From positions 113,622-177,621 of the forward strand of contig VIIQ02000851.1 of NCBI GenBank assembly GCA_007449985.2: a stretch of DNA of 64,000 nt. Direction: 5' to 3'. The notes below the pieces were generated by a model. It worked only from the letters and a program-made list of their open reading frames with translations. It made no database searches and was not told the DNA's origin. The stretch's first letter is position 1. Every line of letters begins with the position of its first letter. The stretch comes from Desmodesmus armatus (lineage: Eukaryota > Chlorophyta > Chlorophyceae > Sphaeropleales > Scenedesmaceae). The position numbers were made by a program, and so were the translations under genes. Of this stretch, positions 21,016 through 35,094 are shown one piece after another.

Positions 21016-24000
21016 ATGTTCTGCCTCTCCCCTTCTCTACGGTCGCTCGGACCTCGAGTCAGGGTCCCTGGAGCTCGCACCAAGCGACTGCTCAACGTTG
21101 TGGCCTTCAGAGAACGCAGTCTTGAATGGGACAGCAGGCGCAGCAGCAGCGACAGCAGTCCACAACAGCAGGCCAGCAACAGCAACTCTCACGCCAAGCG
21201 TGACTTCCTAGAAGCAAGACAGGTGTCTCTCTACGAGCTGTTCGATGGGAACGCCTTCCTGTTGGACGTGCCAGAGTACCAGAGGCCGTATGCCTGGCGG
21301 GCAAAGCAGGTAGTTGGCAGGGGGTGGCCAGCACATCCAGCAACTGCCTTCCTTGCACAGCAATAAGACGTTGTTATCTTATTTTGTTGTGAACGAGGTG
21401 CTGTGCGAAGCACACATACCAGAGGGCAGTACAGGGACCTCATCCCTCTCAAACAACACAAGACGCTCATGCTGCTTGCTGCTGTAGGTGCAGGAGCTGC
21501 TTAGTGATCTGCAGCAGGCCTTCACGTCAGGCCAGGAGCATTTCCTGGGTGCCGTCGTCACAACGCGGCGGGGCGAAGCAGCTGGAGAGCCCTACTGGGT
21601 GGGTGTCCTGCTGCCCCAGCACTTGCAGTTGACACAGCACTCCTGCACATAGCTGGTATAGCACACACAGCATGCCCCACATCCAAGGTTTTCAAGGCTA
21701 GCCATGCTTTGCCAGCCAGCGTGCTGACGAGGATCCATATGCCCCCTTGCTGTGCATTAGCCTGCACAAGGCGTACTTGTGTGACACAACCAGGGGTTGA
21801 TGGATCCCTATATGGAGGGCCCAGCTCAAATCCACCTGATACTGGCGGTTGATATACCCAGCTGCAGAATGGGCGGTTCGTCATCGGATGCCAGCTAGCC
21901 ATGCTGATTACACAAAGCGCACAGTGAAGGTTGCATGCCAGCAGCAAGCCAAGCCCCCCAGCTGCACACACAGAGAGCTTTCTACCACATGTGCAGGCAG
22001 AACAAGTGCTGCACTATGACGCCGCATGTGCAGGCAAAATCCTGCAGCAGTCACCCGCACCAGCCTCTGGCTCCCTTGTGGCTTGCGTGCTGAGCTTTCT
22101 CAATCCCAACACATACCATACAACCATAATCCCCCATGTAACTGTCGCCACAACTGTTACTGCAACTGTCACTGCAGGTGATCGATGGGCAGCAGCGGCT
22201 GACAACACTGGTTATGCTGTTGAGCTACCTAAGAGCCTGGTCAGCCACACAGCCCGGCCTGGAGAGCCTGGCTGATCGAGTGCACAGGATGCTGCTCATA
22301 CCAGCAGACCCACTCAACCCAACCTCCAAAGCTAGGTAGGTAGGGGGCGTCTGGGGCCACGTGGGCTTCCTCAGTCAATGCAGAAGTACATGCAGTACAT
22401 GCCTTGCAAGGATACAGTTTACAACAACAGGCCAGCAAGAGCTGTGTGTAGTCATCTTGTTATTCGGAGCCCCTCAGGGCCGCGGTCGCCGCTTCTGCTG
22501 ATGGTCCCCAAACAAAGTACAGCCCACACCATCATAGATCGCCTGGATGTCTGGCGTGTGGAGAGGAGGGACATGATCTGGTGTGTGCATACCTGTTGTT
22601 CAAAGGCCACCGTCTGAGTACAAGCTGTGCAATTGCAAACAAAGGATGCATGTAACAACGGAGTGTGCAAGCAGCTACACTGCCACTGACTGCAGGTGTG
22701 CAACTGCTGCTGCTGCTGGCTGCAGGTACCGCCTTCAGCTGCGCAGTGCTGACCAGGAGTTCTTTGCAGGTATGGCGGAATGCTTAGGATGTCGACAGCT
22801 TGCAAGCCAACAGCAAAATCAGCTGCAGTGGTTAATGGCTGCAGTCTTTGGGTGCTGGGCGCATCTCAACAGCTCTGCTGTAGGCTCCAGAAACAAGGCA
22901 TACTGCATGTCTGCAGCAACAAAAAAACTCCAGCCAGCCTCACGTGCTTATGCAACCAGTGTGTTGGTGTATGTGACGATGTATCTGTTGCTGGCAGCCA
23001 CATGCCGGTTCCATTTTTAGAAGACAATGTTGCATGGCTCTGTATTGAGTGCGCGCTGTGCTTGCCGTGTTGCTGCTGCCTGTCCTTTGCAGACAACTTC
23101 ATAACCTCCTACCTACCCCACAGATACCACCTCAGTATGCAGATCGACAGCCCAGCCAATGCAGCCAGCGACTTCCACGAAGCCGCACAGCAGCTTAAAC
23201 CCCAACAGCAGCACCAACAGCAGCAGCAGCAGGCGGCAGCACACGACAGCAGCAGCAGTGTGAGCAGCACCAAGAGCAGGCCCTTGGCGAATGAGGCGTG
23301 GTGGCGGTTGTACTGTGCTGGGGATGTGCTGGCCTGCCATTTGGCTCAAGCTATGGAGCAAGGGCTCAACTTGCAGGTGGGTGGTGGGGGTTGCATGGGT
23401 AGGCAACGCAGCACACACACATACACATTTCAGCAGCAGTGACAGTATATTTTTTGTATATTCACAGCTTACGCTGTGTCTTATGTTTTGATGGTCAGCA
23501 GAGCAGCATTTACACCTAGAGGCGGGGGCAGGGGGGCAAAAAGCTCAAGCAAATACCACCCCTCGGCCTGCAGCTGTTTCCCAAGCATTGATTGCAAGAT
23601 ATGTGCCAGCAGTCAGGTGCCGTGCCCGGCAGCTGAAACAGTACAGGCATGCAGCTCGTGTTGATACACCTGCTCACCTGCTGCACGTGTGCTGGCTGTG
23701 CTGCATGCTGTAAGAAGGTGGTGTTACATGGGCTTCTCAAGCAGCTACGCTGCAACTGTCTCCAGCCACAGAGGGATGCAACCAGCACGGGAAGGGGGCC
23801 GACTGGACAAACCCCACCCCTGTGCTGCATGCTGTCTGCATGTGTGGTGCAGGATTTCGTGCACTACGTGCTGAAGCACAGCATGGTAGTGCTGATGACA
23901 GCGCGTGATGAGAGCACCAGCTTCAAGATCTTCTCCACACTCAACGGCAGGGGGGTGGACCTGGCTGTCATTGACAAGCTCAAACCTGAGCTGCTGCAGG

Positions 24001-27000
24001 TGATGGTGGCTGTGCTGCATGTGTCTGATGACAGTCCCGTGACAGTCTTTCCTGCTGCACCCCTTCTTGACTGCAGTCTGTATCGTGCCTCCTGTGCATC
24101 ATGTCTTGTCTTGTGCACCCTCTACTCATTTTTCTAACACACGCACACAATATAATAGCTACACATGCATGCTCTATGCTCACACACAGACTGACGCCTA
24201 TGAAGGTCTTGCCTTTTGCACTCCTCCCCCCTCACACATGCATTGTCTTGTCTTGTCCCGCCCCCTCCCCAAACACACACACACTCATACATATGACGTT
24301 CTTGTTCTTCTGCACCCCCCCCCCCCCCGCCCACCTTTCAACCCCCCCCCCCACCCCCCCCCCCACCCCCCCCACCCCACCCTGCAGGCCCTTCCTGCAG
24401 GTGTCCGCAGTGAGTATGCTGAGCGCTGGACATCCCTGGAGTCCTCCCTAGGCCGGCCCTCCTTCCACGCCCTGTTTGACCACTTTGTGGTCATAGAGCA
24501 GGCAGCCATAGCAGCAGCAGGAGGAGGCGGCGGCGGCGGCGCGTCTTCTAGCAGCAATGGCAGCAGCCAGCGGGGCGAGCCTGCCAGCAGCAGCAGCAAC
24601 AGCAGTAAGCTTGGAAAGCAGAGAGGCTTCGTGCCTCCTGGCAGTAGCTTACTACACCCTGGCGGCAGTATGGCTGGCGACCATGCTGGCACTAGCAGCG
24701 GCAATGGCAGCAATGGCAGCAGTGGCGCGTCACTAGTGACTGCTGCCGGCAGCAGCAGCAGCAGTAGTGTCCAGCCTGCGCTTGTGCGGCCCGATGTGCT
24801 GCAGCACTTCAGCAGTCACCCGGATGCAGAGGCTGCGCTGGATCAGGTGCTGCAGTATGGCCAGAGGCTGCTGCTGCTGCGCGCGAATGACTGGTCGGCG
24901 CTGGCAGCAGAGGGAGGCACAGGTGAGGGAGGAGGAAGGCAGCTCATCTACTTGGTGGTCTCCTACAGCCTATGCGAGTTTCCTTTGTGGCTTGAAGCAG
25001 CAGCAGCAGAAGAAGAAGAAGGGGTTACAGGGCGACACACGCAGCTACGCTGCAACGACACCCAGCAGAGGATTATAGCATCATTCTTCTGTGCCTCAGC
25101 AGCCCCTTGCCTGGCGCCGTCCGCACTTGTGTGCTGTTTTATGGGACAACTTGCACATGGAGCTCAGAGACCACACCACAGCATAGATGATGATGATTTG
25201 TGTTACATTGGGGCCTGTCAATCCAGACCATAAGCTGCCGACCAGTGGCAACCGGGGACACCAATCCATTATCCCCCCAAAAGTAACAAGGCGCCACCTA
25301 TGACCTGCCTTTTTCAGCAAGTACCTGCGATACACACAGAGTTAACTGACATGCAAGCATGTGCAAGGCATCGAGCATGGAAAGATGCGGCCTTGTGAAG
25401 CGCACATGAACATGGCAAGCATGACTCAGTGACAGGCTCTTGCTGTCCAGTGTGAGCATGTACAAGTAAGAGTGCAGCAAAGCTGTGCAAAATGCAAGCA
25501 AGACAAGTACACATTCACACTGCCTCCTCAACTTCATTAGCCAAGCATGTCGGTGTAAGCATCAGATGAACAAGGAAACAGGGGCAAATGTCAACAGAGA
25601 ATCAGTCAACTGCTGGCACAACAACAACACGGTGAACACTCAAGGTCGATTCCCCAGACACACACAGAAATGGGTGGCTAGGGGAGACCTGAGGGAACCA
25701 GGACTTGGGGGCTGCCTCTAGGGCCACAAAATTCTCCAAAAGCTCCCAAAAGCAAGACACTGCTTGCTGCTGAACCTCAGCCAACTGAGCAGCAGCAGCC
25801 TCTTGCTGCTGCTGTTGTTGCTGCTGCAAAAGCAACTGTTGACGCTGCCGTATCTGTTGCTGATGCTGTTGCTGAGTAGGGGTAAGAGGGGCAGGCTGAA
25901 AAATGTCAGTGATGCGCAGTTGGCCATGTGGGACCTGTACCGCAGCAGCCCTGAGGGCTGCGGTTGTAGCTGCACGCTGCTTTTTCTGCTGCACACCAAT
26001 TTGGCACGCTGCTCTACGGCCCAAGTCCATGGCATTAATAGCAGCAAGGCAAACAACCTGCCACACACCCTTGTGCAGGGTGCAAGCAGTAGATACACCT
26101 CTAGGCCGCTCCATGAGCAACACATGCCACGGCCTCAAAGCACCACAAATCCACCCACCCGACAACTGCTGCGTCAATGCCTCGACAACCGACTGAGCCA
26201 CAGGGCAGTCCCAATAATGATGGCGGCGACCTGCGGATAGGCCAGTAGGCCTAGGGCCACACACACACTCACCCGCCTCCTGGTGTAACCGCTCACCACA
26301 GGCCAAGCCATTCAAAACCAGGCGCCAATACACCTCCTTAAAGCTATTATCCCACCGCACACTCCAAAGCTGGCGTTGAGCAGCATTCACAGCACCAAGA
26401 TGCACGCTCATTGCATCAGGGTTGCCCCTATCCAAGAAAGGAGCAAACTCATCCACAAAATCCACCTGATACGACTTGCGCAAAGAGTTCAAGGGCCGTA
26501 ATTGAAGCTCTGTACCCAACTTGACAGTGAATGCACCAAGAGTGACCGGGACACGCCTACCAATTTTCCAACCCATACATGCTGCCATGTCACTCTCAAC
26601 CTGCAATTCCTGTTGTGTGGGTGGCTTTTCAAAAGTCCTGCCTGACAAGCCATCCGACTGCAGGTAGGCTTCCAATACAGCAGATGTGGAAGAAGTGGCT
26701 GCTTCAGCAGCCTGACGCCACCCGGGCGGTAAGGCTGCCAACAACATGTTGAGATCGTCCATCTCACTATCCGCATCCGCCCAAGGGCCCCGATATGGGT
26801 CTCTGGCAGCCAAAGGCGCCACAACACGAACAGCACGCACCACATCCCCCACAGTAGACAACACACCCCGCAAGTAGCCACCACTCATTTGGTGAGGGTG
26901 GATGTACCTAGGGCGTGGCAACACCTGCAAGCCCCTCGGCCCATTACCATAAGAGCGGTGGGGGACTGCTGTAAACGGATTACCCCAGATTGGGGCATCA

Positions 27001-29819
27001 GCACACCAAGGGCCAGGTTGCAGGTGCAAGGTGGAACCGGATGCACCATCATTTGCAGGCCCTTGTGGATAAGACAACACCTGAGCCGGCCCCAAAGCTT
27101 GCAAACCCTTTAATAACTTCCGCAAAGTGGCAGGTACTGCACCAGCACCGCGCACGGGGGCCACAGGATTGCCAGAATAATTAGTTGTGTCAGGGCGTTG
27201 ATCTACACACGAGCAATCCAAGCATGCAAGGGGCCCCCACCATGGGCATGCCCGGCGCAACATTGCTCTACCCAACAACACCCACGGCTCAGTGGATACT
27301 GCAGGAGCAGTAATAAACTTTGCGGCCCACCAAGCATGGCGAGCCCGAATGTGCTGTAGCCAAGGCAGAACCCCGAAGCCTCCAACCTTGGGCTTGCCCT
27401 GCAGGAGGGTGGCACTCACCCCAGCAAACCTATGGCCTGGGGTATCTGGTGCCACCCCCCCCATCCACCAGCTTTGCCACTGCTGCAGACAAATGCTGAC
27501 ACTGTTGAGTAGAAGGGGGGTTAGCAAACTCTGCACAGTACAACAACTTGGATATACCATAAGATGCAGCAGCCAGTCCCCTTCCAAAAGCAGAGAGCTG
27601 CGTCAAACACGAGAGACGCGAGAGGGCACGCATAACACCCTCAACATTACCGTCCCAGGATTGCTCTCCATCACCTCCAATGCACACTCCCAAAACTGTG
27701 GCAGACAAGACTGTCTGCAGCTCATGCCCGGGAGTATCCTGTTGCTGTTGCTGTTGCTGTGCAAAACGCCTGCGTGCTGCAGGCCCCAACAAAAGCAATT
27801 TAGTCTTCCGCCTGTTAAGGTGCTGGCCTGATGCAGCAGCAAACACCTCCATCTTCTGCAAAAAGGCAGGCACCTCAGATTCAGCGGGCAACAACACCTG
27901 GGTATCATCAGCAAACTGGGTGCTTGTCAAATTGACTCCCAGTACCGTAACACCAATACACCCAATACACCCAATACACCCCCTGGCTTCAAAATACCAA
28001 TAATGGCCCCATCCAAAACCCTGCAGGTACCCTACGCAACCGTCCAATACCACAGAACAACCGACACAACACTGGCACAAGTATATCTTTGAATTTTTTT
28101 GTAGAAAGTCAGAGGCAGCCCATCAGGGCCTGGCGAGGTCCCAGGCCTTGATGACACCATGGCTGTGCTCACCTCCTCAACCGTCACCACCGGTTTCCCA
28201 TCAGCCGGTGCAACACCCCCCGGCTGCAAAGCCCTGATAGCTGCCATAACCTCTGCTTGGGCTGCAGGGTCAATAGCAGGCTGCTTACTGACGTTTGCAT
28301 AGTGCTGAATGGCTACATTGGCAGGCTCTGCCTTCTGCCACACTACCTGCCCTGATGCAGCCCTCAGCATGATGGGCCGACGAGAGTGGCCCCCCTCCAA
28401 CGCCTTTATCTGCTGCGTGATGACTGGCTGCGCCCGCTCCCCATGATGAAGCCACTGGAGCCGCTGCAGCCGATCACAAGCATCACACGCCTGCTGCTGG
28501 TGTTTGCGCAGAGCTAAACGGGCTGCCAGCACGGCTTCCATAGCAGCAGAGATCTGCTGCTGTGACGTAGCTCTGGCTAGTGCAGCAGCTGCTGTCTTCA
28601 CTTGCTGCATTTGAGCCTGTGCATCCCGCGGGGGCCGGGCACTGCGCCACACCCTGTTGGCCTGCCGCAGCCTTTCATAGGAGCGGCGCGTGAACCTCGG
28701 CCACCAATCCAACACCCCCTCATCATCCCCGGGAATCCCCTGCACCTCATCCCTCAGCCACTGCGAGACTTCTGATCTAAGCTGTGGCAAGGCCATGAAA
28801 TCCAGCCGAGCCCTAGGGAGGCCAGGCCCCCTGGCGGCTGGTGCAAGGATAGGCAGCAACTCACACAACACCATGTCATGGTCAGAGAAGCTGGAGGGCT
28901 CACACGTGCATGACAAGATGTGTGGAGCCAAAGCAGCGCTGCCATAAAACCTATCATGGCGTGCTGCATGCCCATTTGATCTACTAAAATAAGTATAACA
29001 TTTAGCAGAGGGATGCTTCGCCCTGAAGATGTCCACTGCTTCAGGCGCTGCACTCAGCAGCGCCTCAGCAGACCCGGAGTCCCCATGCACATCCCCCTCC
29101 GGCTGCGCCCTCTTGTGCCTTCTATCCCCAACAGGATCTGGCACAAAATTCCAGTCTCCCATGAAGAGAGATCCTTGTGGCCGCCGCTGCCAAGCAGCAG
29201 CCACAGAGCTGCGAATGAACGCAGCTCTAGGCCTGGGTTCGTTGGGGCAATACACACTGCCAAACTGCAGATTGTGCCCTCCCCACTTGACCCCAGCCGA
29301 AACCAACCTACCCCCCCAGTCAAAGTCAGTGTTCGCCTCCGGGCGCAAATCCAACACACCCTGCTCCACCAAATCCCGCCGAAACAGCAGCAGCACACCT
29401 GCAGATGCAGTTGCTGCTACGTTGGGGCCGCCCGGACCTCAAAACCCGAGTGCTGTTCCCGGCGCTGCGCAGCATATACCGTCACAGCTGCGTTGAGCCG
29501 GTTGACAAAATCAAACATCCCCACTTCCCCCAGCTTTACCTCCTGCAGCCCCAAGACATCCACTGCGTGGTCCACCGCGTCGTGAGCCAACACAGTGGTG
29601 CTGGCTGCAAGCTGGCCAGCCACATTGAGTGTGGCGACCTTGAGGGTGGGCCGCCTAATGGCTGGCCTGAGCTGCTGGTGTGTTACTGGCATTAACTGAA
29701 GGGCCCACCCTCACCTTCTTTGCGCGCTGCTTCCAGGGACTGCAATCCTGGTCAGCTGCGCGCTTCTCCAGCGACCAATCCATGCCGCCGCTGTCAGCAG
29801 CAGCTGCTTCCCCCAGTGT

Positions 29820-29852
<33 letters not shown>

Positions 29853-32800
29853 CATTGCAGAGCAATGAAGCCTGTCGATATCCATTGTGTCAGTGTCTGA
29901 TGCAGCAGCTGCCACGGACAAGGTGTCCCGTATGTTGCTGCTGACTTTGCCGGCGCTGCAGCTGTGCCCCAGGGCACTGCTGCTGCCGCCCTTGCACTTG
30001 CTGCTGCTGCTGCTGCTGCTGCCCTTGCTGCAGCTGTCACCGCCAGCACAATCGGATTTGCAGCTGCCAGCGCTGCTGTTAGTGAGGCAGCTGCTTTTGC
30101 TGCCCCCTACGCCGGCACTGTTGCTGGTTGTGACACTCCCGTTGCTGTTGCCACTGTTAGTGTCAGCGGTGAGGGTTTGGCTGCTGCCCTTGCGACTGCT
30201 GCCACTGCGGCCGCTACTACTGCTGCCACCGCTACTGCTGCCGCCACTGCCAGTGCTGCCTCGGCAAGGCTTTCCACTGCTGCTGCTGCTGGTGTTGCTG
30301 ACAGGAGCAGCACCGTACTCAGGGCAGCACCCATCTACCATGGCCAGCAGCATGTCCTCCTTCGCTTTGCTGCTGTCTGGTGTGCCGTAGGCCGCGGTTG
30401 GTACGTCTAACAGCCGGATTGCCTTGTCCAGTGCAGTGACGCGACCGGCTGTCAGATGATGATGATGATGATGAATTGTGTTACATTGGGCCTGTCAATC
30501 CAGACCATAAGCTGCCGACCAGTGGCAACCGGGGACACCAATCCATTATCCCCCAAAAGTAACAAGGCGCCACCTATGACCTGCCTTTTTCAGCAAGTAC
30601 CTGCGATACACACAGAGTTAACTGACATGCAAGCATGTGCAAGGCATCGAGCATGGAAAGATGCGGCCTTGTGAAGCGCACATGAACATGGCAAGCATGA
30701 CTCAGTGACAGGCTCTTGCTGTCCAGTGTGAGCATGTACAGATGTTGTGCGGCTAGCTATGATCCGTGTGGATGTTTTTTGGTGTCATTTGCGACGTTTT
30801 TGAGCCTTTTTGGGAGTGCGCGCGAAACCCTAAACCCTGACGAAAAAGGCGTTCCATAGAGGGCTTTTTTGGGCGTGTTGCACATGTGAAGCCCTGTTAG
30901 CTCAGTTGGTTAGAGCACTGTGCTAATAACGCAGGGGTCGCTGGTTCAAGCCCAGCACGGGGCACTTTTGTCGGGCTGTGTCAGCCTTTTGGCGGCATGT
31001 TCAGCTGCTCCTGAGGGGAGGGGGGAAGGGGTGGATCTGAGTGTGAGGTGGGGGAGGGGAGGAAGGAGACGAGTAAGAACTTGAGGTGTGCTCCTTGCCT
31101 GATGACTCCTAGCAGCTCTGGGTCCTAGGTGCTGTGGCGTCGTTGGACTGCCTGGTTGCGTCCGTCCGTTGCTGGGTTTAGTTGCAGCGTAGCTGCTTGC
31201 GTAGCCCTTGTAACACCTTCTTCTTCTGCGTCGTTGGACTGCCATCTTGGGGTCTGAAGCATGGTTTGATTCCCTCCCCATCCTCTCCCCCCCCCCCCCC
31301 CCCCGGGACCTGCAGGTCCAGCCGTTGCTGCTGAGCTGAAAGATGCGTCTTTCTTCATCAACCTTCTGTCCGATGACTCCTGGCGACCCTGGGTGCTGAG
31401 CTGCCTGAACCCCTGTCCTCCCCTGCTCCTGCCCCTCTCCCCTCCAAGCAAACTATGCTGGTTGTGTTTGCTTGGGTGTACACCTCACTTACTCCTATAT
31501 GTTGAACCCCCCCCCCCCCCCCCCCGCAGGTCCAGCCATCGCTGCTGAGCTGGAAGAGGCGTGTTTCTTCATCAACCTTCTGTCTGATGACTCATGGCAG
31601 CCCTGGGTGTTGGAGTTCTTCTACCAGAGTGAGGATGATGCCAAGCGGGCAGCTTTCCTCAGGGGGGCAGAGGTGCTGCAGCTCTACTGCGAGCTGAAAC
31701 AGGATGAGGGCTTCAAACAGCAGAGGTGAGACAACCTTCATTTGTTCAGTGCTGATTTGGTTCGTGCTGGGGGCGGGGGTGGAGGTGGTGGGTGACGGCA
31801 GGGGGGCAGCTCTACTGCGAGCTGAAGCAGGGCGAGGGATTCAACCAGCAGAGGTCAGTCAATTTGTCTTCACACTGGAGTTTGGGAGGGGGAGTGTAGA
31901 GTGGGGTTTTGAATTGGTATATTGGTAGGGGAGGAGCTCTACTGCCAGCTGAAACAGGACGAGGGCTTCAAACAGCAGCGGTGAGGCGGCCACTCACTCT
32001 TTGTGACTTGTAGTTTGGGGTTTGGCGGGGGGGGGGGATATCGGCAGGGGAGCAGCTGTACTGTAAGGTGAAACAGGACGAGGGCTTCAAACAGCAGAGG
32101 CGAGTCAGTGGGGAGGGGGCAGGGTGGGGTGGATGAGTACTTTCTGGTCCTGTCATCCATGTGCAGCGGAGGTTCACCTTTTCTTCACCTCGTCTCCCCT
32201 TGCCAACTGTGGTCAAAATACAGTTGCAGTTACACAGTTACAGTAATTGGCTCAGCAAAAGCTGAGCAACCCACAAGGGAGCCAGAGGCTCATGGGGGAA
32301 AATGTTCCCGCGTCCCTGTTGCTGCTGCAGGTGGCTGTCTGTTGGTGCGCAGCTGCTGCGTCGGCCGTTCTATTCGGACCAAGTGCTGGACACACTGGCG
32401 CTGTCAGCGGGTGAGTGAGAGTGAGGAGTGAGGAAGGATGGCAACTGCGTGAGAATTGTCAAGTAAGGGATGGGGACTAACAGCTGAGTGAAGCCGCGTG
32501 AGCCTACATGGGGTGCACCTCTATTACGCATCTTTCACGGTTTGGCCACTCTCTCAATCCTCTCAAATCACACACATTGCTCCCCCACTACCACCCCACG
32601 TGTGACGCCCCCCCCCCCCTTTTGTGACCCACCCACCTTGTTTACCCCCCCCCCCACCCCTTCTCCAGATGAGGCTGAGGACTTCATTAAGCTGCTAGAC
32701 AGCCGTGAGCTTGCTGCATCAGCTGAGCAGGGCCTGCTGGTGCACCTGCTGCTGCGCGCTGACAGCATCAACAGACGAATAACAGACTGGAGGAAACTCA

Positions 32801-35094
32801 AGGTGAGCTGGGTGTGGGCTGTGTGTGTCGTGGGCGGGTGGAGTGGCGGCAGCAAGTGGTCTGCATGTCTGTTGACAAATGAAATGTTGTGAGTGAAGTC
32901 TGTTGACTCAGTGAGCGGAGCTGTCGAGCCACATAGCTACAAACCTCAATTCCTTGAATCATGGGGCCTGGAAGGGACAAGGATTGAAGGAAGGATTCCA
33001 GTTAACCCTGGGGTTGTCATCATCAGTGCAACAATGTTCTGCTGCTGCTGCTGCAGGTTGAGAAAATCATGCCGAGCAACCCTCCAGAGCGGTCCAAGTG
33101 GCGCAAACAGAAGCTGCATCTACCAGCACTGTCAGAGGAAGACTACACAGCAGCAGCCAGCAGCAGCAGCAGCAGCACTGGGTACGGTCTCTTCAACCCT
33201 AGCAGCAGGAGCCGCAGTAGCAGCGGCGGCAGCAGCAGCAGCAGGGGTAGCAAAGGCAACCGTAGCAGGACCACCAGCAGCAGCAACAGCAGCAGACGCA
33301 CGTCTGAGCGCTCTACAGTAGCAGGCGACAGCAGCACCAGCAGTATTGATAGCACAGCAGCTGCCCCCAGCAGCAGCAGCAGCAGCAGTAGTATTGTGCC
33401 GTCAGGCATGCGAGAGGTGCGGTACTGGCATGAGATTACTCGCAGCCATTGGCACAACAGGCTCGGCAACCTGCTGCTGCTGCAGCCCACAGGGAGAGAG
33501 GTGGGTGGGGGATAGGGGTGCACCAAGGGGGGGGGGGCGAGCGCAGGCATATGGCAGATTGCGGTACATGGTTGATGCTTTGTCAATGTAATCCCCTTCT
33601 TTGTGCCTTCCCTGCCGCACCTGGATCCACTGCTTTTCCCTATCTTCTTGCCTCTCCTGACCGTTGCTCGACCTCTATCTTATGCATACGTCCTCCTGTG
33701 CCTGTGTGTCACTGTGCCCTGCAGGCCCCTGGCAGCAGCCACCTGTCTGCCGACCTGCCCACCAAGCTGGCCTACTACGAGGCATGTGCAGCAGACGAAC
33801 ACTTCCCTGACTTCACAGGTGGGACCCAAGGGGGGGGGGGGGGGGCTGTTCTGTGAGGCTGATTGTGGGTGCGGTGGGGCCCGGGGGAGGGGGGGGGGCT
33901 GCTCAAGTGCGTGGGGCAGGGTTTGGGGGGGGGGGGGGTCCGAGAGGCTGATCGTGGTAGGGTGGACTGAGTACGTCCGCCTGCAAGGGTCTGAGCGGGG
34001 AAGGATGGAGGCGTGTGTGTGTGTGTGGGCTGGGGGGTGTCTCCATAGTGGTAGCTTTTGCAGGACGGGGCAGGGGAACGCTAAAGGGAAGTGGGGGGAG
34101 AGGAATGAGGAAAGCCTTTGGTAGGACAGGAAAGGTGCCAAACTGGCTCTGCCTTGGCAGCTTCAATTTGGCGGGGTGCCGGCACTCTGTGTGGCTTGGC
34201 AATGCCTTGTGGACAGGACGCTGGCTGGGGTGCATGCATCCATCCTCTCTGTGTCTGTCTGCTTCTCCTACATGCTGTCGCACTATGCGTATCATTCCAT
34301 GCATGCATGCGACAGCGCAAAACCACCTACAGGTTGATTTTTCTTGGTTGCACACTGCAGCTGTGAACAGTCCACCTGCAGGTGGTGTTGCGCTGTTGCA
34401 TACATGCATGGAGTGTTACGCGTAGTTTGACAGCTTCTAGGGCCAGTCTGCAGCAGCAGCAGCAGCAGCAGTCCGTCAGCAGTCTGGCGACAGTCCGGCA
34501 CACCTGCACAGCAACCCTGCACACTCCAGCGCTGTTGTGAACGTGATCACTGTCCTGGTGGTGTTGATTTGGAAGTGTCCAAGGGGGGCGCCCCCCCCCC
34601 ACCACCACCACCACCAGCTGGCCACACACAACTGAGACAGGTTGCCTGACTGCCAGGGGCCGGAGGCTAAGCCTCACCGATGAGGGACACCTAACACACC
34701 TGGTGTGTTTGAGAGCCCGCTTGAGGAGCTGGGGCTCGACTCTGTTCCAACGTCTGATGTTGCGCTCAAAGGGGGGCTGGCTGATTTGTTGAGCCTGCAT
34801 TGGTGCTTGTCTGGGTCTGTCTGTGACTGGCTTTGTGGTATGTTGTGTGGCGTGTTTCGCTGCAGGTGCCCTTTTTTCCCGCCTGGCTGGGTCAAATCAT
34901 GTTGAAAGACTAATAATTGACCATCACATGCTGCTCTTTCGACGGTGCATGCTGCAGGTGGTGTTGTGAGTGGGCGCTACAGCCGTGACATGTTCAGCCC
35001 TGAGGAGTGCAGGCAGCGACACGCTGACATCATCAGCAGGCTCATTGCAGTGTTCACATTGCAGGGCAGCAGCAGCGGCAGTTCTGGGTTATGA
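21016..35094 (+). CDS. DUF262-DUF1524 protein, GmrSD-like (type IV restriction enzyme family), nuclear-encoded
   Basis: Thirteen exons: 21016-21309, 21488-21598, 22178-22335, 22726-22769, 23093-23376, 23853-23999, 24388-24922, 31530-31725, 32331-32410, 32669-32802, 33057-33500, 33725-33818, 34958-35094. All borders are GT-AG, every phase matches, and the 2658 bases give 885 residues plus stop with no correction. The N-terminus (MFCLSPSLRSLGPRVRVPG, Arg/Ser-rich, few acids) looks like an organelle transit peptide. DUF262 follows: VPEYQRPYAW (about residue 90), VIDGQQRLTTL (about 136), and FKIFSTLNGRGVDLAVIDK. These are the ParB/Srx-like nucleotide-binding motifs. The DUF1524 (HNH nuclease) part has VEKIMPSNPP, RLGNLLLL and a C-terminal RYSRDMFSPEECRQRH. 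The usual His of the E-H-I-x-P motif is Lys here, so nuclease activity is doubtful. In bacteria this architecture cuts modified DNA, using NTPs. Ser-rich linkers (24540-24770, 33155-33390) lengthen it beyond its relatives. Confidence 0.88.
25186..25464 (-). repeat. LINE 3' UTR, copy at the element's own 3' end
   Basis: About 279 bases starting (plus strand) with four GAT units and ending CATGTACA. It is almost identical to 30455-30740, with differences only in GAT number and in G and C run length. On the element's strand it ends in ATC repeats, a simple-repeat tail as used by several LINE lineages in place of poly(A). Confidence 0.85.
25602..27480 (-). pseudogene. LINE C-terminal domain with zinc knuckle
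   Basis: About 620 codons open after a frame change at a G run near 27450. It includes RRHHYWDCPVAQ preceded by GECVCGPRP, a Cys-Cys-His-Cys style motif found near the C-termini of plant and algal LINE ORF2 proteins. It ends in a Gln-rich tail coded by CAG repeats. This is the longest intact frame of the element, but it is separated from a working RT. Confidence 0.75.
27430..29692 (-). pseudogene. LINE endonuclease and truncated reverse transcriptase
   Basis: Motifs in order: KVATLNVAGQ and LQEVKL (frame ending 29417), then after a frame change near 29400 GDWNFVPDP, ARHDRFYGS (a worn S-R-I-D-R-F-Y) and FSDHDMVLCELL. These are the landmark residues of APE-type LINE endonucleases. RT block 1 follows as SPGPDGLPLTFYKK near 28100. 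The next blocks are absent: the sequence jumps through a 9-bp tandem repeat (CCAATACAC, 27953-27980) to STQFADDTQVLLP near 27900. The deletion removes the RT fingers and the region before the catalytic DD. Confidence 0.85.
29655..30454 (-). pseudogene. LINE ORF1-like frame, 5' truncated
   Basis: Open from the element's upstream boundary. It begins LTAGRVTALDKAIRLLDVP, then a long Ser/Gly region, a CAG-coded Gln run, and a basic C-terminus (KKVRVGP). There is no start codon before the boundary with the neighbouring 3' UTR copy, so the N-terminus is missing. No RRM or CCHC knuckle is visible. It overlaps the endonuclease frame by about 38 bases in another reading frame, so it may be the N-terminal part of one original polyprotein. 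Confidence 0.6.
30455..30740 (-). repeat. Second LINE 3' UTR, a solo 5'-truncated copy
   Basis: Nearly identical to 25186-25464, with six GAT units. On the minus strand its ATC tail is followed directly by the truncated ORF1-like frame of the larger element. The sequences diverge at CATGTACA on the other side. This is what a severely 5'-truncated insertion leaves. It makes a head-to-tail LINE pair. Confidence 0.8.
30891..30964 (+). tRNA. trnI-AAU: tRNA-Ile (anticodon AAT)
   Basis: A full cloverleaf can be drawn. The acceptor stem GCCCTGT pairs with ACGGGGC (one T-G). The D arm contains GCTCAGTTGGTTAGAGC. The anticodon stem CTGTG/CGCAG encloses the loop CTAATAA with anticodon AAT at 30925-30927. 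The variable loop is GGGTC, and the T arm is GCTGG-TTCAAGC-CCAGC. The discriminator base is A. The A-box and B-box promoters are inside the gene. There is no intron. It lies in sense orientation within intron 7 of the DUF262-DUF1524 gene. Confidence 0.97.
30966..30969 (+). terminator. Pol III T4 terminator of tRNA-Ile
   Basis: Four T residues start two bases after the discriminator base, the usual RNA polymerase III stop signal. Confidence 0.85.
31316..31388 (+). repeat. Partial upstream copy of DUF262-DUF1524 exon 8
   Basis: It has its own acceptor (CTGCAG before 31316) and reads GPAVAAELKDASFFINLL..SWRPWVL, matching the first third of exon 31530-31725. It then runs into unrelated sequence without a donor, so splicing into it would break the protein. 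Confidence 0.8.
31804..32099 (+). repeat. Three tandem copies of the 3' end of DUF262-DUF1524 exon 8
   Basis: Segments ending at 31853, 31980 and 32099 repeat the last ~45 bases of exon 8 (core LYCELKQDEGFKQQR), spaced 119-128 bp apart. The first two keep AG|GT donors in the same phase as the true exon end at 31725. The last has AG|GC. Alternative use of these donors would insert intron sequence, so they may be decoys or harmless debris. Confidence 0.8.
34268..34446. repeat. Foldback (inverted repeat) in intron 12 of the DUF262-DUF1524 gene
   Basis: The left arm 34268-34333 and the right arm 34375-34446 are imperfect reverse complements over about 65 bases (shared core CCATGCATG..GCGACAGCGC against its complement), with a loop of about 41 bases. 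As RNA it would form a long imperfect hairpin. It could be a small foldback MITE or a microRNA-type precursor. Nothing else in the sequence decides between these. Confidence 0.65.

Follow-up and report, generated by a model that had tools for sequence, protein, structure and literature searches.

The window analyzed here is a stretch of 64,000 nucleotides (nt) from the green alga Desmodesmus armatus (assembly GCA_007449985.2, contig VIIQ02000851.1, positions 113,622 to 177,621), and it contains a gene whose product is, to judge by descent, a member of the GmrSD family of bacterial DUF262-DUF1524 proteins. By the residues at its E/D-H-N-N site, this algal protein does not appear to be an active Type IV restriction enzyme. 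On balance, we favor the reading that it is a nucleoside triphosphate (NTP)-switched DNA reader that does not cut, that was acquired once by an ancestor of the Chlorophyceae, and that probably acts in the plastid. The gene structure, the homology, the predicted fold of an orthologue, the residues lost and retained, and the grouping in one algal clade are direct observations.

The gene and its two domains

The gene consists of 13 exons on the + strand (21016-35094; Table 1), and all 12 introns are of the GT-AG type. The joined coding sequence of 2,658 nt is open throughout and encodes 885 amino acids (aa) followed by a TGA stop codon; the ATG is preceded, 78 nt upstream, by an in-frame stop. 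An initial annotation, made from the letters alone, had described 13 in-phase exons giving an uninterrupted 885-aa frame. The exons and the continuous frame are borne out, but the introns are not of a single phase: phases 0, 1 and 2 all occur. The 12 exon junctions align without gaps to the Tetradesmus and Scenedesmus proteins P0001, P0002 and P0003. In EukProt, a piece of 472 aa (GHRR01023023.1), whose label we read as that of a transcript assembly, covers junctions 3 to 7 and stops at junction 8. Gap-free junctions and a piece that crosses them place the gene model beyond chance. Contamination or a chimera is ruled out by the introns, the junctions and the orthologues, so that the gene is, as annotated, a true algal nuclear gene. 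The annotated landmarks YQRxYxW, DGQQR, FxTLNxRG and RLGNLxLL were located at aa 88 (YQRPYAW), 138, 324 (FSTLNGRG) and 796 (RLGNLLLL), and VEKIMP starts at aa 662.

The Pfam GmrSD_N (DUF262) model matched the window protein with 106.9 bits (E 1.9e-30, cut-off 33.2) and matched 13/13 members of alignment A2. The Pfam DUF1524 model (PF07510) gave no match to the window protein at E <= 1 and hit three of the 13 members of A2 (best E 0.13). This second half was recovered by profile-profile comparison (hhalign 99.6%, E 8.4e-24), and a hidden Markov model (HMM) of 62 bacterial-type C-termini matched the window protein with E 1.1e-12, the best of 360 shuffled sequences reaching 0.25. Thus, of the two Pfam domains by which the initial annotation proposed to check its bacterial-type DUF262-DUF1524 protein, the first was found directly and the second only through these more sensitive profiles; the domain assignment itself stands. 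The AlphaFold model of an algal orthologue matches DndI and SspE, and its HNH fold is well predicted. NCBIfam assigned no family to P0003.

Two of the four catalytic residues are lost in the algal proteins

The nuclease site was compared in alignment A3, which holds 18 algal and 62 bacterial-type proteins and does not include the window protein. At the column of the catalytic His, the algae have Arg (11), Lys (6) or a gap (1). His is present in 61 of the 62 bacterial-type rows and in 48 of 51 proteins from named prokaryote genomes, together 109/113 rows, in sets that are not independent and contain near copies. The exceptions are P0112 (Gln), L029 (Arg), and L042 and L075, which show Ala in columns that are doubtful: L075 is only 394 aa long, and L042 reads EHLIP by plain pattern. 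The L029 protein, a bacterial DUF262-type protein of Bifidobacterium callimiconis, reads ERIGP by plain pattern in an uncertain alignment and is a possible case of independent loss of cutting.

The metal-binding Asn, nine residues after the Asn of GNL, is found in 60/62 bacterial-type rows and in none of the 17 algae with an HNH region. Alignment to solved chains, with positions counted by hand, equates this column with N541 of DndI and N676 of SspE. In the window protein, these two positions are occupied by Lys664 (His column) and Arg808 (column of the metal-binding Asn). All 17 algae retain the structural Asn and an acidic residue ahead of the His (Glu in 15, Asp in two), so that two of the four residues of the E/D-H-N-N site are gone in 17/17. 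According to the accessible accounts of these enzymes, changing DndI N541 or SspE N676 to Ala impairs nicking and abolishes phage protection, and the accessible text of PMC4619093 reports that Eco94GmrSD H508A, altered at the equivalent of the His, has no activity.

The algal protein is therefore very probably unable to cut DNA, as far as these residues tell. The initial annotation had noticed that Lys in VEKIMP replaces the HNH His and had suggested that cleavage was perhaps lost and NTP binding perhaps kept; both suggestions fit the loss of the His and the metal-binding Asn and the intact DGQQR motif. The case against cutting is now stronger, because the metal-binding Asn is lost along with the His. 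Decay of the HNH region in the window protein only is ruled out, the change to Lys or Arg being clade-wide (17/17).

That the protein might still be a nuclease, either through an HNH fold with a remade site that cuts DNA or RNA or through cutting by the DUF262 half itself, as proposed for GmrS in the accessible text of PMC4619093, seems improbable. The well-predicted HNH fold and the retained Glu/Asp and structural Asn are in its favor, as are His and acidic residues newly conserved in the algal C-termini (D425, E434, H523, E734, H739 and, in 15/17, E553; P0003 numbering). Against it stand the two residues gone in every one of the 17 algae and the crippling effect that single Ala changes at the same positions are reported to have in GmrSD, SspE and DndI.

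The sensor half is retained

In A3, DGQQR is intact in 18/18 algal proteins, the F and N of FxxxN are present in 17/18 with one gap, and the Q and R of YQR in 18/18, with Tyr changed to Phe in one. The wider pattern P-x-[YF]-Q-R occurs in 23/23 algal rows. The pocket Q and R are also found in 62/62 bacterial-type rows, and the motif is therefore not diagnostic. In SspE and DndI, NTP hydrolysis is reported to require the Arg of DGQQR, and the response to the DNA mark to require the pocket Tyr, joined in SspE by the Gln. The NTPase is likely to have been kept in the algal protein, and a role as a DNA reader appears reasonably probable.

There are 39 columns that are fixed in at least 16 of 17 algae and alike in at most 10% of the bacterial rows, and 43 that are fixed in the algae and common to at least 90% of the bacterial rows. 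Between the window protein and its Tetradesmus and Scenedesmus relatives, 23-30/40 and 26-27/38 residues are kept in the HNH pieces and 127-131/170 in the helical middle (hand-set borders), compared with 22/81 and 25/70 aligned residues in linker 2 and between 31/80 and 30/57 in linkers 1 and 3. As these columns are fixed and the HNH pieces and helical middle are better kept than the linkers, it is unlikely that the protein is in decay. The 39 algae-specific columns, together with the long stem branch described below, could also be taken to mean that the scaffold no longer serves DNA and was reused for a protein or another ligand, with NTP switching kept. Retention of the DNA-sensing pocket and of the 43 family-wide columns makes us regard this as quite unlikely.

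One algal clade of bacterial origin

Relatives were collected by protein searches (the best 120 of 724 matches, 40 of 40, and the best 120 of 374). The top matches listed come from Tetradesmus, Scenedesmus, Volvox, Pleodorina, Gonium, Tetrabaena, Sanguina, Haematococcus, Chlamydomonas schloesseri, C. reinhardtii, C. eustigma and Chlamydomonas sp. UWO 241, with a few proteins without a name; we take these genera to belong to the Chlorophyceae. Below the algal proteins, the matches listed are bacterial, except for a partial protein that carries the label Gigaspora margarita. Because scoring was confined to the candidates with most words in common, more distant eukaryotic relatives could have escaped these searches. 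UniRef names several of the algal relatives "GmrSD restriction endonucleases N-terminal domain-containing". The initial annotation had called the gene domesticated; it is not an isolated case, being shared by many Chlorophyceae, including C. reinhardtii.

In a tree of 87 rows, 16 algal rows including the window protein lie on one side of a branch with a Shimodaira-Hasegawa-like approximate likelihood ratio test (SH-aLRT) support of 100, in an unrooted, quick search with three very long bacterial end branches and unusual composition in many rows. The stem of the algal clade measures 2.29 changes per column, and the clade splits into a Scenedesmus-type group of five (support 92) and a Chlamydomonas/Volvox-type group of 11 (97). 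We have little doubt that the gene is of bacterial origin and came by transfer. A single old transfer followed by vertical descent fits as the simplest account, because there is one algal clade on a long stem. The C. reinhardtii protein P0121 falls within this clade, so that the function could be probed in a laboratory alga through knock-out and localisation.

In the genome (115.8 Mb, 831 contigs), the first 390 residues used as query found no second copy, the PF03235 search found nothing beyond one exon of the locus itself, and the PF07510 search found no match, the locus included. A single copy and old vertical descent argue against an antiviral or anti-mobile-element sensor that binds foreign DNA in the cytosol or nucleus and signals without cutting; defence genes usually turn over fast. 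Descent from defence proteins would agree with such a sensor, as would the PADLOC results for three algal relatives, whose best models are the defence candidates Orf5 and HEC-06, then SspE. We give it a small chance.

Location and proposed mechanism

An [VI]xA motif followed by F, A or S lies ahead of the core in 16/23 algal rows, and no acidic residue precedes it in 13 of these 16; the N-termini that end in it are basic. We take VxA to be the cleavage mark of plastid transit peptides in Chlamydomonas. The window protein has the transit-peptide-like N-terminus claimed for it in the initial annotation (Table 1). A literature search on VxA cleavage of transit peptides found a paper that, in its accessible part, applies VXA to signal peptides and lends no support. 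The pattern suggests plastid import, with the mitochondrion or nucleus as alternative sites, and we see an even chance that the plastid is the site of action.

In the reading that we favor, a single-chain bacterial DUF262-DUF1524 enzyme of the GmrSD/SspE/DndI type would have passed, in a single event, into an ancestor of the Chlorophyceae, with vertical inheritance since. On the algal stem, both the metal-binding Asn and the general-base His (replaced by Lys or Arg) of the HNH domain would have been lost; the fold of this domain would have persisted, as would the DGQQR nucleotide motif of DUF262 and the PxYQR DNA-sensing pocket. DNA with some mark or in some form would enter the pocket, NTP hydrolysis would follow, and the two halves of the protein would shift between closed and open states, as in SspE, where mark binding is reported, in the accessible account, to widen the nucleotide pocket before hydrolysis, after which the protein opens and nicks. 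The dead HNH domain would then be a DNA clamp instead of a nickase, probably acting on plastid DNA after import. Since the nickase is gone, the output would have to be binding, protection or recruitment of another factor. The name "restriction-type enzyme" used in the initial annotation holds for family descent and, with the catalytic His and metal-binding Asn lost, is probably wrong as a working name; what remains resembles a DNA reader plus NTPase.

Several points speak against this reading. The PxYQR and DGQQR motifs occur in nearly all members of the family, and their retention therefore names no mark and proves no NTPase, and the newly conserved algal His and acidic residues make a remade active site possible from sequence. 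The tree, an unrooted one obtained by a quick search, singles out no bacterial donor phylum among its 87 rows and does not include the Chlorella and Coccomyxa proteins of PMC4619093, so that the number and age of transfers may change. The VxA pattern was picked after inspecting the sequences and is absent in 7/23 rows. Truncation of the models may explain five of these seven, C. reinhardtii P0121 included, which start inside the core or at most 36 residues from it; P0012 and P0124 are genuine exceptions. Unless the models of P0001 and P0003 are short, their VxA, at residues 8-10, comes too soon for a normal transit peptide, and P0123 has three acidic residues ahead of its VxA.

As to the mark, phosphorothioate, which SspE and DndI sense, is unlikely: no dndC-like gene was matched in the genome, in a weak search in which controls matched in 5/14 cases, none above the cut-off. 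A nuclear, cutter-less reader of modified cytosine, either 5-methylcytosine (5mC) or 5-glyceryl-methylcytosine (5gmC), for instance the bulky 5gmC that CMD1 produces in Chlamydomonas, is an unlikely alternative that we rank as a minor contender. GmrSD is reported to target glucosylated hydroxymethylcytosine, likewise a bulky C5 adduct, and 5gmC readers are still to be identified according to the accessible text of PMC12458080. Against such a nuclear reader, the N-terminal pattern hints at organelle import, and a Tet_JBP search of the genome gave no match, with controls equally empty. A reader of marked DNA would fit two open questions in Chlamydomonas, namely the destruction of plastid DNA from one parent and the reading of 5gmC. 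It is a slim prospect that the Type IV restriction enzyme became, in the chlorophycean ancestor, a plastid-imported DNA reader that senses marked or unmarked plastid DNA by its DUF262 half, is switched by NTP hydrolysis and, while not cutting this DNA itself, protects it or hands it over to another nuclease; if true, it would be a molecular piece of Sager's idea of a restriction/modification-like control of uniparental chloroplast DNA inheritance. The accessible text of PMC12079397 states that the exact nucleases and mechanisms of selective plastid DNA destruction have not been identified and names the nuclease MDN as a candidate, which speaks against a need for the algal protein in this process.

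Features of the locus and other genome observations

Table 1. Positions of features in the window; the last three rows are positions in the genome sequences L090, L092 and L091
Feature	Coordinates	Strand	Basis
Exon 1: N-terminal extension, DUF262 start, YQRPYAW	21016..21309	+	gene model, junction 1/2 alignment
aa 1-30, basic, zero acidic residues, VVA end before F; putatively transit-peptide-like	21016..21105	+	
YQRPYAW, DUF262 DNA-sensing pocket motif	21277..21297	+	motif position
Exon 2 (DUF262)	21488..21598	+	gene model, junction alignment
Exon 3 (DUF262, DGQQR)	22178..22335	+	gene model, junction alignment
DGQQR nucleotide motif	22184..22198	+	motif position
Exon 4, 44 nt	22726..22769	+	gene model, junction alignment
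Exon 5 (DUF262 and linker 1)	23093..23376	+	gene model, junction alignment
Exon 6 (DUF262, FxxxN)	23853..23999	+	gene model, junction alignment
FSTLNGRG (FxxxN motif)	23931..23954	+	motif position
Exon 7 (DUF262 end, Ser/Gly-rich linker 2)	24388..24922	+	gene model, junction alignment
tRNA-Ile (AAT) gene in intron 7	30891-30965	+ (strand of host gene)	
Exon 8 (helical middle)	31530..31725	+	gene model, junction alignment
Exon 9	32331..32410	+	gene model, junction alignment
Exon 10	32669..32802	+	gene model, junction alignment
Exon 11: DUF1524-type HNH region split by Ser-rich linker 3	33057..33500	+	gene model, C-terminal profile
Lys664 where catalytic His expected	33063..33065	+	alignment, motif position
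RLGNLLLL including structural Asn (799)	33459..33482	+	motif position
Arg808 where metal-binding Asn expected (N541 DndI, N676 SspE)	33495..33497	+	alignment
Exon 12	33725..33818	+	gene model, junction alignment
Exon 13 including TGA stop	34958..35094	+	gene model, junction alignment
Methylase-bearing retroelement copy	L090 1231-6981		
Methylase-bearing retroelement copy	L092 2357-8107		
Methylase-bearing retroelement copy	L091 2123-7873		

Intron 7 (6.6 kb) contains an antisense retroelement (25211-30740, minus strand). One of its open reading frames (ORFs) has an endonuclease/exonuclease/phosphatase domain (28035-29396, E 2.4e-05, 24.6 bits, cut-off 24.5), and among further ORFs, the one beside it is a candidate reverse transcriptase read by eye, without confirmation by Pfam. 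The element is bounded by direct repeats of 191 nt (25274-25464 / 30550-30740, 100%) and 71 nt (25211-25281 / 30488-30558, 99%). Parts of exon 8 are duplicated: the 5' end, together with the preceding intron, occurs twice (31293-31398 and 31507-31612, 86%), and the 3' end, together with the splice donor (31661-32104), is present in four copies including the exon's own, spaced 119-128 nt apart; the partial duplicates look like relics. When 10 ORFs of the window were searched against Pfam, the only matches were the retroelement endonuclease of intron 7 and, below threshold, SPT16_C, and they gave no functional clue.

Elsewhere in the genome, we observed a retroelement that is Ty3/gypsy-like by the order of its reverse transcriptase, RNase H and integrase domains. 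Its 1916-aa ORF includes a PHD finger and a C5-cytosine methylase domain in which the PCQ and ENV motifs are visible. Of 90 matching places, 34 are 100% identical over 333 aa, and L090 is matched at 99.96% by two of the remaining copies across 7.7-7.8 kb; as the copies are near-identical, the element has moved recently. By-eye counting placed the start of 19 of the 34 identical places less than 10 kb from the first base of the contig. PMC5890265 describes methylase-bearing retrotransposons in dinoflagellates and charophytes, and the words chlorophyte, green algae and Chlamydomonas are absent from its text; the methylase may therefore be a further acquisition.

Comparison with known systems

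Literature searches on DUF262 in Chlamydomonas and on horizontal transfer of GmrSD genes to green algae found nothing, and among the GmrSD papers listed only PMC4619093 looked relevant by title and terms. In its accessible part, that paper counts three eukaryotes among the organisms with GmrSD homologues, and an alignment legend names Chlorella variabilis, Coccomyxa subellipsoidea and Thalassiosira oceanica. The GmrSD family thus occurs in these algae too. Within the GmrSD/DUF262 literature, among the matches listed, we did not find in print the clade-wide double catalytic loss with the sensor kept, the grouping of the chlorophycean proteins in one clade, or the pattern at their N-termini.

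Compared with Eco94GmrSD and BrxU, the algal protein differs in the loss of the catalytic His and metal-binding Asn and in having introns, an N-terminal extension and low-complexity linkers; the structural match to BrxU is modest (Foldseek E 0.11, probability 0.30), and that to the ParB-type nucleotide-binding fold is weak. With SspE and DndI, which are phosphorothioate-sensing NTPase-nickases, it shares the P-x-Y-Q pocket, but the nickase Asn (N541/N676) is missing and, in the weak search described above, so is a dndC-like gene. What appears to be new is the cutter-less variant; the GmrSD family itself is known, algal members included. A prokaryotic defence enzyme has apparently been kept across an algal class after the loss of its cutter, with the sensor half intact.
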